Positions 53,042 to 63,811 of a DNA stretch of 64,000 nt are shown one piece after another. The notes below the pieces were generated by a model. The model searched no databases. It worked only from the letters and a program-made list of their open reading frames with translations, and was not told the DNA's origin. Both the position numbers and the translations under genes were made by a program. The stretch is taken from NCBI GenBank assembly GCA_026125285.1, contig JAHCLO010000034.1:1-64000 (forward strand), in the 5' to 3' direction. The first letter of the stretch is position 1. Every line of letters starts with the position of its first letter. This stretch comes from Verrucomicrobiia bacterium. GTDB taxonomy: Bacteria; Verrucomicrobiota; Verrucomicrobiia; Limisphaerales; JADLHS01.

Positions 53042-53180
53042 CCCTCACCCCGGCCCTCTCCCTCGGGGAGAGGGAGAATCGTTCGCCGCCTCTCCTGCAG
53101 TCGTGAGTCGGTGGATGCACCGGAGTCGTTGCGTGATCAGAAAGCGTCCAATCGCTGTTCCCTCTCCCTGAGGGAGAGAA
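53042..53180. repeat. CCTCACCCCGG/GAGGG inverted-repeat element, copy 1
   Basis: The left end CCTCACCCCGGCCCTCTCCC with hairpin CCCTCTCCCTCGGGGAGAGGG, and the right end TTCCCTCTCCCTGAGGGAGAGAA, point towards each other. Related pairs occur at 55555-55754, 59281-59591 and 61811-61974, always in spacers. Confidence 0.65.
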
Positions 53181-53218
53181 TTGCCCGAACTCAGATTCGC
53201 GCTTTGAACCCCCGAACT

Positions 53219-53274
53219 GGAGCGCGGAGCATTGCTCCGCTCGGCCCGACCCGCGGAGCAATGCTCCGCGCTCC
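53219..53274. repeat. REPIN-like palindrome, GGAG/CTCC type, copy 1
   Basis: 56 bp starting GGAGC, with hairpin GCGGAGCATTGCTCCGC (53224-53240), an 12-bp centre, then an inverted hairpin GCGGAGCAATGCTCCGC (53253-53269), ending CTCC. Almost the same 56-bp unit lies at 59459-59514. A tetranucleotide plus hairpin in inverted pairs is the design of REPINs. Confidence 0.75.
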
Positions 53275-53367
53275 GTTAGCGGGAAGCGTCAGGGGGAATC
53301 GTGCGCATGCCGTTTGGCGTCCGCCTTTGTCCCGGCGGCTCATTCATCAAATTATCTCTGCAATTTC

Positions 53368-55554: not shown

Positions 55555-55754
55555 GCTCGCCCTCACCCCGGCCCTCTCCCCCGGGGAGAGGGAGAGCAAA
55601 TCCCGGTTGTGGAACGACTGGACAATTTCGTTCCAGTCGCTGCCTTCTGAGCTTTCGTTTAAGGGCATTCGATCACCCAGCGCGTTCGGCTTTGCAAAGA
55701 GTTGGAAAACGATTCCCCCTCTCCCCGGGGGAGAGGGCCGGGGTGAGGGCGAGC
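55555..55754. repeat. CCTCACCCCGG inverted-repeat element, copy 2
   Basis: 200 bp with a long terminal inverted repeat: GCTCGCCCTCACCCCGGCCC at the left and its exact reverse complement at the right (at least 27 bp counting the CTCTCCCC next to it). It occupies most of the 306-bp spacer between mutA and mutB. The inside has no open reading frame of note, so it looks like a MITE. Confidence 0.75.
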
Positions 55755-59280: not shown

Positions 59281-59591
59281 GCTCGCCCTCACCCCGGCCC
59301 TCTCCCCCGGGGAGAGGGAGAATGGCACGCCGTCACTGGTTAATTGCGGATGGTTTGGCTTGTCGTGCGCGTTCGCATCAAGTCACCAACCGCCGTCGCC
59401 GGCACTGCGAGTGAGCAAATTCGCAGTTCGCCCCGATTGCTGTTCCCTCTCCATGAACGGAGCGCGGAGCATTGCTCCGCGTGTCGAGCCGAGCGGGGCA
59501 ATGCTCCGCGCTCCAGTTCGGGGGTTCAAAGCGCGAACTGGGGTTGGGCGAAATCTCTCCCCGGGGGAGAGGGTCAGGGTGAGGGCGGGCG
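59281..59591. repeat. CCTCACCCCGG inverted-repeat element, copy 3, with a nested REPIN-like unit
   Basis: It starts GCTCGCCCTCACCCCGGCCC and ends in an imperfect reverse complement (CTCTCCCCGGGGGAGAGGGT ... GAGGGCGGGC). The 311-bp element contains the GGAG/CTCC palindrome (59459-59514). It also carries TTCGGGGGTTCAAAGCGCGA, the inverted form of a sequence flanking the copy at 53219. It covers the whole meaB-mce spacer. Confidence 0.7.
59459..59514. repeat. REPIN-like palindrome, GGAG/CTCC type, copy 2
   Basis: 56 bp, GGAGCGCGGAGCATTGCTCC ... GGGGCAATGCTCCGCGCTCC, the same length and layout as 53219-53274, with a few differences in the centre. The flanking 'AGTTCGGGGGTTCAAAGC' is the reverse complement of the flank of copy 1, so the larger units are inverted relative to each other. 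Confidence 0.75.
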
Positions 59592-59623
59592 TTGAACACA
59601 CTTTTGGCAACCACTGAAACTTT

Positions 59624-61810: not shown

Positions 61811-61974
61811 GCCCTCACCCCGGCCTTCTCCCATCCGATGGGAGAGGGAGAATCTTCCGCCGCTGGTTTAAAATGTCGTGTGGCGGCGATTGCGGGATGG
61901 TCTTACGAACAACGGCGAGTGTTCGAAACCTGTTCCCCTCTCCCGTCGGACGGGAGAGGGGTCAGGGGTGAGGG
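61811..61974. repeat. CCTCACCCCGG inverted-repeat element, copy 4
   Basis: 164 bp between the 12S and OadG-like genes. Left GCCCTCACCCCGGCCTTCTC with hairpin CTCCCATCCGATGGGAG; right CTCTCCCGTCGGACGGGAGAG with GGTCAGGGGTGAGGG. It is the most diverged copy of the family here. Confidence 0.6.
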
Positions 61975-62004: not shown

Positions 62005-62400
62005 ATGAATCCCACTCCTCCTCCTGACGATCTGTCACCCGCCGAGTCGAACCTCGGCAAGGTGCTGGCACTCATTCATCGCGTGTTACCGCGCCTTGAC
62101 GACCCGGCCCGCAAGGCCGAGGTGCAATCCGCGTTGAGCAAGGCCGCTTCGTTCTTGGAAGCGGCGCGGGCGGCGCACAGCGGCGGCGTGGCCAGCCTGC
62201 CGCCGATTGGTTCGCAACAGGTCGCCACGGCGGTGGCGCCAGAAATCGCGGCCGTGATTGCGGCGGCGGTGTCCGTGATTCTCGACCGGCCGTATCGGCT
62301 CGTTTCCGTGCAACAGGTGACGGTGCCCGTTGTGCCGCATCTCAACGTCTGGGCGGTGGAAGGCCGCACGCAGATTTTCATGTCCCATAAAGTCCGTTGA
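62005..62400 (+). CDS. Small OadG/MmdD-like accessory protein without membrane anchor
   Basis: 131 residues from ATG 62005. The C-terminal part, PEIAAVIAAAVSVILDRPYR then VWAVEGRTQIFMSHKVR, resembles the soluble tail of gamma/delta subunits of Na+-pumping decarboxylases (OadG/MmdD), which bind partner subunits and sometimes zinc. The N-terminal half is helical, not a membrane span. It sits between the 12S and carrier genes, so it likely belongs to the carboxyltransferase complex as an assembly factor. Confidence 0.55.
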   Translation: MNPTPPPDDLSPAESNLGKVLALIHRVLPRLDDPARKAEVQSALSKAASFLEAARAAHSGGVASLPPIGSQQVATAVAPEIAAVIAAAVSVILDRPYRLVSVQQVTVPVVPHLNVWAVEGRTQIFMSHKVR

Positions 62401-62417
62401 ACCCTTTACCAAATCGC

Positions 62418-62852
62418 ATGATCAAACGACTTCGCGTCACCGTGGATGGCAACTCTTACGACGTCACCGTCGAGTTGCCCGATGAAACCAGTGCGGCGCC
62501 CGGCGTCATTGCGCCGCCCCTGCCCTCAGCGCCAGCCGCCAGCGCCCCGGCAGCGCCCGCTTCGCCGCCGCCCGCCGCCGCTCCCGCTGCACCCGCAGCA
62601 GCAGTAGCAGCCGCACCGGCGGCTTCCGGTCCGGCGGGTCCGGGCGATGTGCCCAGTCCGCTGGCCGGTCGCGTGACGGCAGTTGTGGTGGCCGTGGGCC
62701 AGGAAGTGAAGGAAGGCGATCATCTCATCACGCTCGAAGCGATGAAGATGAACACGTTCGTCTTCGCGCCCAAGAGTGGCAAGGTCACCGAAGTTAAAAC
62801 CGCCGTCGGCGCGACGGTCGAGGAAGGACAGGCATTGGTCAGTATTGGATAG
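62418..62852 (+). CDS. Biotin carrier protein (transcarboxylase 1.3S/BCCP-type)
   Basis: The start at ATG 62418 gives 144 residues. N-terminal docking strand MIKRLRVTVDGNSYDVTVEL, a long Ala/Pro-rich flexible linker, and a biotinyl domain GDVPSPLAGRVTAVVVAVGQ ... LEAMKMNTFVF with biotinylated K110 in EAMKM. It carries carboxyl between the 5S-like and 12S-like active sites. The biotin ligase gene follows 17 bp later. Confidence 0.94.
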   Translation: MIKRLRVTVDGNSYDVTVELPDETSAAPGVIAPPLPSAPAASAPAAPASPPPAAAPAAPAAAVAAAPAASGPAGPGDVPSPLAGRVTAVVVAVGQEVKEGDHLITLEAMKMNTFVFAPKSGKVTEVKTAVGATVEEGQALVSIG

Positions 62853-62869: not shown

Positions 62870-63811
62870 ATGCGAGGTTTCGTGAGGATTGAATTAACAG
62901 ACAGCCGGCAAGTGCTCGCTGATGCTGGTAGCCGCCGAGGTAACGAGGCGGACTCGCTCGGATTGCGTCGTTCTCCGCCTCCTCACGTCGGCGGCTACGA
63001 TGTTACGGCGGAGTTCTGGACGTTGCACGAGTATGCCGAAGTCACGTCCACCAATCTGATCGCCGCGAAGCTGCCCGCGTGGCATGCGGTGCGGGCGGAT
63101 ACACAATCGGCGGGACGCGGACGGTTTCAACGGAATTGGGTTTCCGACGCGGGCGGACTGTGGCTGTCCGCAGTCGTGCCGGTGGAAACCAATTCGCCTG
63201 CGTGGCGAATGTTGCCGCTGGCGACGGGCGTTGCGGTGTGCGAGGTGTTGCGCGGCTTGGGCGTGAAGGAACTCCGGTTGCGCTGGCCCAATGACGTGCT
63301 TGTGGGCGACCGCAAATTGGCGGGTTTGTTGATTGACCAGTTTCAGGCCGGGCTGGCGGTGGTGGGCATCGGCATCAATGTCACAAACCAACCGCACACC
63401 CGCGACGCGGCCTTGAACGGCCACGTCGCGCGCCTGGCGGATTTGGTTTCGCCGCTGCCAACATTGCGGGAATTGGCGGAGCGGGTGCTGAGTTCGCTGC
63501 GCGGGGTCTGGCAGGAATTGAATGGTGGCTTTGATTGCGCCGAGACATTGGTAGAGCGAAAGCTTTTGCCGCCGGGCTTGAAGCCCGGCTCTACGGCAGG
63601 CAGGGATGCCTGCCGCTACACGTCATTGTTGCCACGCGTGAACGCGCTGTGGGATTTGCCGCGCCGCGTGCAGCTCGACCTGGACGGCACGCTGGTCGAG
63701 GGTGAATTTGCGGGCGTGGACGCCGGTGGCCGTTTGCGCCTGCGTTTGCCGGGCGATGTGAACCAGTTTTTTGAACCGCAAGAGGTGAAGCTCCTGCGCG
63801 ACATTCCCTGA
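62870..63811 (+). CDS. birA: Biotin-[protein] ligase interrupted by palindromic repeats
   Basis: 313 residues in the open frame from ATG 62870, with no DNA-binding domain. The catalytic domain has ADTQSAGRGRFQRNWVSD (GRGRxxR), LRWPNDVLVGDRKLAGLLI and VGIGINVTNQP; the C-terminal domain follows residue 215. Residues about 20-43 are encoded by a 71-bp repeat (62928-62998) and 228-250 by a 69-bp repeat (63551-63619), neither part of the family. It biotinylates the carrier of the preceding gene. The native start may be elsewhere (see findings). Confidence 0.85.
   Translation: MRGFVRIELTDSRQVLADAGSRRGNEADSLGLRRSPPPHVGGYDVTAEFWTLHEYAEVTSTNLIAAKLPAWHAVRADTQSAGRGRFQRNWVSDAGGLWLSAVVPVETNSPAWRMLPLATGVAVCEVLRGLGVKELRLRWPNDVLVGDRKLAGLLIDQFQAGLAVVGIGINVTNQPHTRDAALNGHVARLADLVSPLPTLRELAERVLSSLRGVWQELNGGFDCAETLVERKLLPPGLKPGSTAGRDACRYTSLLPRVNALWDLPRRVQLDLDGTLVEGEFAGVDAGGRLRLRLPGDVNQFFEPQEVKLLRDIP
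62928..62998. repeat. REPIN-like palindrome, GTAG/CTAC type, at the birA 5' end
   Basis: 71 bp: GTAGCCGCCGAGGTAACGAG with stem CCGCC/GGCGG, a 21-bp centre, then CCGCCTCCTCACGTCGGCGG and CTAC. Inverted pair with the GTAG tetranucleotide outside. Its length is not a multiple of three, so it changes the frame of anything translated across it. Confidence 0.75.
63551..63619. repeat. REPIN-like palindrome, GTAG/CTAC type, within birA
   Basis: 69 bp from GTAGAGC to CTAC. It has hairpins GCCGGGCTTGAAGCCCGGC and GGCAGGCAGGGATGCCTGCC, each followed by (T/G)CTAC, and an outer GTAGAGC/GCTCTAC pair. 69 bp is 23 codons, so the birA frame is kept across it. Confidence 0.75.

Follow-up and report, generated by a model that had tools for sequence, protein, structure and literature searches.

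How does a palindromic repeat come to lie inside the reading frame of a biotin ligase, and can the enzyme carry it? The question is raised by a 69-nt element near the end of the window, as we call the whole 64,000-nt stretch of Verrucomicrobiia DNA analysed here, from a genome named G000 below. Its sister species of the same genus, G001 (VER1), serves for comparison. It is in our view highly probable that several GTAG-type REP units make up the 69 bp, that these are carried as an in-frame passenger loop in an accessory biotin ligase, and that they are one case of a Limisphaerales-wide habit. REP units are non-autonomous mobile hairpins, and RAYT (TnpA_REP) HUH transposases move elements of this class.

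The repeat in the birA frame

The features of the locus are the following.

62397–62852, plus strand: biotinyl carrier protein by open frame and EAMKMNTF motif, just upstream of birA
62870–63811, plus strand: birA-like biotin protein ligase frame, 313 aa counted from the first ATG
62928–62998, no strand assigned: second GTAG...CTAC element (family C, GTAGCCGCCGAGG...CGGCGGCTAC) at the 5' end of the birA frame; fold z −5.0
63546–63550, plus strand: CATTG before the 69-nt element, read from the sequence
63551–63619, no strand assigned: composite GTAG-REP insertion, 69 nt, residues 228–250; absent from 31 of 33 aligned orthologues; hairpin z −5.9
63551–63570, plus strand: degenerate third unit GTAGAGCGAAAGCTTTTGCC, inverted; missing from most other copies
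63571–63594, minus strand: REP unit A2 GTAGAGCCGGGCTTCAAGCCCGGC, stem 7, loop 5; present with a loop change in birA of G001
63595–63619, minus strand: REP unit A1 GTAGCGGCAGGCATCCCTGCCTGCC, stem 7, loop 6; found again elsewhere in the genome
63620–63808, plus strand: coding region of the C-terminal domain behind the insert; pN/pS 0.11; strands predicted, pLDDT 90 or more
63624–63628, plus strand: CATTG after the element, read from the sequence; a possible target duplication, short and chosen afterwards, the pair being absent in G001

The frame 62870–63811 matches the Pfam family BPL_LplA_LipB (biotin/lipoate protein ligase, E 1.9e-13), and solved BirA structures align with the catalytic part of its protein. 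The true translation start may lie downstream of the first ATG. Judging by sequence, the adjoining carrier protein (62397–62852) is likely to be the substrate of this BirA. A second, housekeeping-type biotin ligase-like gene is found in G000 at C12:203181, so the BirA studied here need not be essential.

Codon 228 of the frame is the GTA at 63551, and the 69 nt encode VERKLLPPGLKPGSTAGRDACRY. The preliminary description of the element was exact in coordinates, sequence, frame and both CATTG copies. It spoke of two strong hairpins: as DNA, the 69-mer folds at −24.9 kcal/mol against −12.9 ± 2.0 for shuffled sequences (z −5.9; 0 of 200 as good), which puts the hairpins above chance, but the structure is richer and holds three units. 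Read on the minus strand, these are GTAG-C-[GGCAGGC ATCCCT GCCTGCC], then GTAG-A-[GCCGGGC TTCAA GCCCGGC], followed by a degenerate unit in inverted orientation with CTAC at its end. On that strand an unpaired GTAG stands directly 5' of a short stem-loop both in 63571–63594 and in 63595–63619. Of the proposed REPIN type, the REP-type palindrome is supported and the simple two-armed form is not, the element being two direct units plus a degenerate inverted one.

Repetition in the genome was likewise confirmed in part: the full length is unique, whereas the two main units recur. The 69-mer has one copy, and the full-length pattern GTAGAGC...GAAGCCCGGCTCTAC one exact copy only; stretches of the 69-mer are matched at six further places (E ≤ 3.5e-5). 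For survey we used 1.24 of the 7.16 Mb of G000 (contigs C1, C12 and C23), in which A1 and A2, with at most 4 errors, gave 4 and 2 matches against 0 for shuffled seeds. One of the partial copies, at C23:262207, likewise keeps the frame of its host gene, which encodes a thioredoxin-type protein. The element is repeated in the manner of GTAG-type REPs, at a copy number low for a REP family. In the same sample, GTAG ranks top of the 256 tetramers for a hairpin next to it on the 3' side (2.7% against a mean of 0.8%). A further seed, J (CCGAAAGG...), had no matches and was dropped. Rfam returned no family above cut-off, only sub-threshold chance matches.

The units A1 and A2 flank none of the 10 scanned Y1_Tnp (RAYT-type) loci of G000, nor the RAYT in DnaE described below, and no cognate RAYT of the birA units was found there; unlike in a REPtron, none of the RAYTs scanned is flanked by these same units; other REP families of the genome do flank RAYTs. 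Several published REP families have no local RAYT, and a flanked RAYT is not needed for REP status.

The element at 62928–62998 had been overlooked in the preliminary description. It would be translated only if an upstream start is used. An unrelated element, GTAGGACAGGCGTCGCGCCTGTC, occupies the equivalent place in G001, so this 5' spot has been hit twice. The layout at 62928–62998 matches a REPIN better than that at 63551–63619 does, and its type is also found in frame in a solute-binding protein (L151:12418-13551).

Other repeats occur in the window. Family B, the CCCTCACCCCGGCCCTCTCCC repeat, has copies at 53042–53093, 55560–55611, 55714–55754, 59286–59337, 59555–59592 and 61816–61867; it is also found in frame in DnaE1 and ValRS. 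Two inverted copies of 118 nt, 88% alike, lie at 53160–53277 and 59456–59573 around GGAGCGCGGAGCATTGCTCCGC palindromes. The sequence CGGACCATCCCCACGCGGGTGGGGAGAACG, by its look a CRISPR array repeat, occurs about 78 times in the 1.24-Mb sample (C1, C12, C23).

Empty sites and selection around the insert

A precise gap at this place in relatives had been predicted, and it is seen in 31 of the 33 aligned orthologues; extra residues are found in G000 and G001 only. One relative with a stop codon in its matched stretch (L066:2501-3313, on contig CAJAYO010000807.1) was left out of the alignment. The segment from ARLADL to VNALW measures 43–48 aa in the insert-free orthologues, 75 aa in G000 and 102 aa in G001. 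Both inserts have an identical right-hand boundary and share A1 and A2. That of G001 is 27 codons longer, with additional hairpin sequence on its left.

Between G000 and G001, pN/pS (Nei-Gojobori, no model) is 0.26 in the catalytic domain, 1.67 in the 24 codons of the insert and 0.11 in the C-terminal domain. As judged from these sequences, the pattern is that expected of a translated but unconstrained passenger: purifying selection downstream of the insert and none on the insert indicate that the ribosome reads across it and that the protein tolerates it as a linker. Synonymous divergence is low in the insert (pS 0.13 against 0.42–0.46 in the flanks), and within the 49-nt A1 plus A2 part all three differences between the two species fall in loops or tag. 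Both facts could point to constraint on the DNA hairpins or to recent separate insertion at one place, and away from plain neutral inheritance.

In an AlphaFold model built from a 33-sequence alignment, residues 228–250 have pLDDT values of 56–74, against 86–97 around them. The insert is thus predicted as a low-confidence linker between well-predicted domains, in keeping with the surface loop first proposed. That the enzyme works, as had also been suggested, gains from the purifying selection behind the insert; its activity we infer from that selection, and the enzyme may be non-essential.

REP clusters and RAYTs inside other enzymes

Nine REP-like families form 98 clusters in the 1.24 Mb of G000, and 56 of them lie inside open frames, counted as such when the frame reached 200 aa or more and left 30 or more codons on each side of the cluster. 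In GC-rich DNA stop-to-stop frames can be spurious, and we therefore checked ten REP-bearing frames in Pfam. All ten matched families. In seven (AlaRS, MutS, ValRS, PheRS-beta, KsgA, a protein kinase and a MutY-like protein) a domain match was found on both sides of the insert. A fusion of DinB-like and DnaE2-like polymerases in one 1620-aa frame (G000:C45, L152:3814-8676) has two in-frame repeat inserts.

The idea that in-frame palindromes are rare outside Rickettsia is not supported, given the 56 of 98 clusters and the in-frame GTAG REPs that Di Nocera et al. (PMC3733652) reported in 2013, mostly from the verrucomicrobium Opitutus terrae. Given this report of in-frame REPs in Verrucomicrobiota, the birA case alone is ordinary.

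Whole transposase genes are found in the same situation. Of the 11 Y1_Tnp transposases that G000 has, one is embedded in the DnaE1 frame (C37, 1518 aa; L151:4525-9081); GTAGTGGCACGGGCGTCCCGCCCGT REPs in inverted orientation flank it, and the frame is free of stops before and behind it. This DnaE1 has a second in-frame repeat insert, EPLIPTLSPRERENRPP...LSPLPGGEGQGEGE, and is the sole DnaE1 of the genome, the other DnaE match being the DinB-DnaE2-like fusion. The RAYT sits about between residues 820 and 831 of E. coli DnaE, in a hairpin PDVNES..FAP|..|IRFGLAAIKGVG that is empty, at 30 aa, in seven of the genomes read at this site. In 7–8 genomes, among them G004, G005, G007, G008, G016, G020 and G021, the hairpin holds REP pairs or other hairpin inserts. 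The arrangement REP-RAYT-REP is found there in G000, G001 and G285, and in G013, of whose DnaE the right half only is readable because the contig begins inside the RAYT. In G102 a RAYT occupies a different, second DnaE site.

Searching 293 genomes of the order with the DnaE RAYT, we found the best 18 non-query matches all in frames of 556–1564 aa; most of the weaker matches, among those listed, are standalone genes of about 200–350 aa. A search of 196 genomes with the ThrRS RAYT listed 32 matches, the query itself included, every one of them in a frame of at least 555 aa, so that among them this RAYT clade is found only embedded. From flanking sequence, the 24 loci of this set that were read are ThrRS, with one site, or AlaRS, with two. 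The ThrRS/AlaRS clade comprises L190, L186 and L237-L260; AlaRS with two RAYTs is seen in G063:C141, G073:C129 and G160:C166. In ten genomes tested, one of them a one-contig genome, all AlaRS matches belong to the RAYT-carrying frame.

By Pfam, the hosts of embedded RAYTs include DnaE, a DinG-type helicase, AlaRS, ThrRS, SNF2, PriA, ClpB, a UDPGP-type nucleotidyltransferase and a DNA methylase. The position of the RAYT, after SVIMTSATLAT, is shared by DinG-type helicases from several families (L184, L199, L203, L204, L211, L213). Long frames with such RAYTs also occur elsewhere in the phylum, with few hosts named there. Nearly all the genomes are metagenome bins, in many of which the pattern recurs independently.

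The inserts examined, of about 180–230 aa, are all open and in frame on both sides. A Pfam scan of 13 host frames reported PF01797 in 8 (DinG, PriA and ClpB, for example), and a search found it in the DnaE frame. The AlaRS and ThrRS types fall short of the PF01797 E-value, yet their motifs are present, and the HUH and Tyr motifs are kept in nearly all embedded RAYTs. By domain and motif these are TnpA_REP proteins, with REP cleavage as their predicted activity. They lack the WxWSSA end typical of most standalone relatives. No splicing domain, as would mark an intein, appears in the Pfam results for these 13 frames.

In the tree, 4 changes account for the embedded state where shuffles need 13, and the grouping for the most part tracks the host gene. 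A single origin of embedding for 24 LPHW-type RAYTs was rejected (AU p 0.004), so we claim no one clade for them.

Embedded RAYTs have pN/pS values of 0.12–0.40, similar to their hosts, and by this sequence measure are under purifying selection. Some pairs look vertical: pS is 0.37 in a UDPGP host and 0.39 in its RAYT, and 0.13 and 0.20 in a DinG pair. For DnaE of G000 and G001, in contrast, host pS is 0.28 against 0.69 for the RAYT, which makes it less likely that the two species inherited the DnaE RAYT from their common ancestor. The G000 RAYT is also nearer that of G285, from another family, than that of G001, its own genus. This mismatch and this affinity suggest that RAYTs have arrived repeatedly at the DnaE site, on the basis of few pairs with synonymous sites near saturation.

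Proposed origin, rival explanations and known systems

The chemistry of TnpA_REP is single-strand cutting and joining (PMC8266576), and we propose that REP units and REP-flanked RAYTs insert in this way. The birA element would have inserted where a linker joins the catalytic to the C-terminal domain; since its 69 nt divide evenly into codons and the frame used has no stop in it, translation would add 23 residues to the protein in a flexible loop. Insertions that break the frame of essential genes would be purged, and those that keep it, in flexible loops, would persist and be translated. Limisphaerales housekeeping enzymes would in this manner keep REP pairs and whole REP-RAYT-REP units in frame in tolerant loops. 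Translation as a single polypeptide, activity of the enzymes, the RAYT as mover, the purging of out-of-frame insertions and a role of existing REPs as landing pads are what we infer from the observations above.

A removed insert needs no frame. The two BirA inserts of unequal length, and all the RAYT inserts examined, are nevertheless in frame on both sides, which makes it very unlikely that the insert is excised from RNA or skipped by the ribosome and that the mature protein does without it. Bypassed or excised inserts do exist in other systems, a precedent that together with the strong hairpins of the 69-mer speaks for such removal; neither an intron family in Rfam nor a splicing domain in Pfam was found. 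That birA is a decaying pseudogene, harmless because of the BPL-like gene at C12:203181, we hold to be highly improbable given that pN/pS is 0.11 and 0.26 on the two sides of the insert since the split from G001 and that the frame is intact in both species. AlaRS and DnaE1, moreover, hold inserts of this kind, and each is the sole copy of its type in the genomes tested.

Retention of the insert in two species could hint at an adaptive role in BirA, in regulation or partner binding for instance. Its protein sequence is not conserved (pN/pS 1.67), however, its lengths are 27 codons apart in the two species and the same types of element sit in unrelated enzymes; such a role is very unlikely. An ordinary variable linker, palindromic in appearance only, would fit the interdomain position, but with 43–48 aa in this segment of insert-free orthologues against 75 or 102 aa in carriers, with REP units recurring in the genome and with a fold z of −5.9, it is next to impossible.

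The closest known case is that of Opitutus terrae, a member of the same phylum, where REPs likewise combine GTAG with a stem-loop and form dimers or clusters encoding 20–30 in-frame residues. In the main-text passages of the report, Di Nocera et al. argue that intragenic REPs occupy linkers or loops. Their work catalogues REP units within annotated genes, to which the present analysis adds orthologues with empty sites and tests of selection. We met no embedded RAYT genes in those passages (all PMC3733652).

REPINs, RAYTs and REPtrons, which are IS200/IS605-like HUH systems, share with our cases the GTAG tag, inverted REP pairs, the REP-flanked RAYT and the HUH and Tyr motifs (PMC2817692, PMC3116915, PMC8266576). 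Known REPtrons are described as separate genes in REP-rich loci, whereas embedded RAYTs are internal parts of the host frame without a stop of their own. Unexpectedly long members of the family were dropped by Quentin et al. as fusions or annotation errors (PMC6006769). In the open-access literature, supplements aside, we found descriptions of intragenic REPs and none of embedded RAYTs; in-frame embedding of RAYTs in essential enzymes seems to be undescribed before.

Like the birA insert, Rickettsia palindromic elements (RPEs) are palindromic repeats in frame within functional proteins. According to the passages cited above, RPEs matching REPs carry a CGTC tag, and CGTC REPs are without a known dedicated transposase (PMC3733652). 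By analogy, embedded RAYTs may be likened to inteins with homing endonucleases, which are in-frame mobile ORFs at recurrent sites in DnaE, helicases and synthetases; unlike inteins, they have no splicing domain, encode an HUH transposase and occupy host sites that are apparently tolerant loops. We give about even chances to a wider reading, in which RAYTs of Verrucomicrobiota are intein-like elements without splicing, REP-flanked and translated inside AlaRS, ThrRS, DnaE, DinG and PriA, that move between species into the same permissive sites, and in which the REP pairs of birA and DnaE are their footprints or landing pads.

In-frame REPs show that mobile palindromic DNA can be taken up by bacterial proteins in the form of loops, so that some "extra loops" in alignments may be transposon remains. 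The sites in DnaE and the tRNA synthetases would mark natural permissive positions for domain insertion. If RAYTs are indeed translated there, one lodged in a cell's sole AlaRS, ThrRS or DnaE would occupy a niche where loss by frameshift kills the host, and this lethality would let RAYTs persist, a testable answer to their long retention in genomes.
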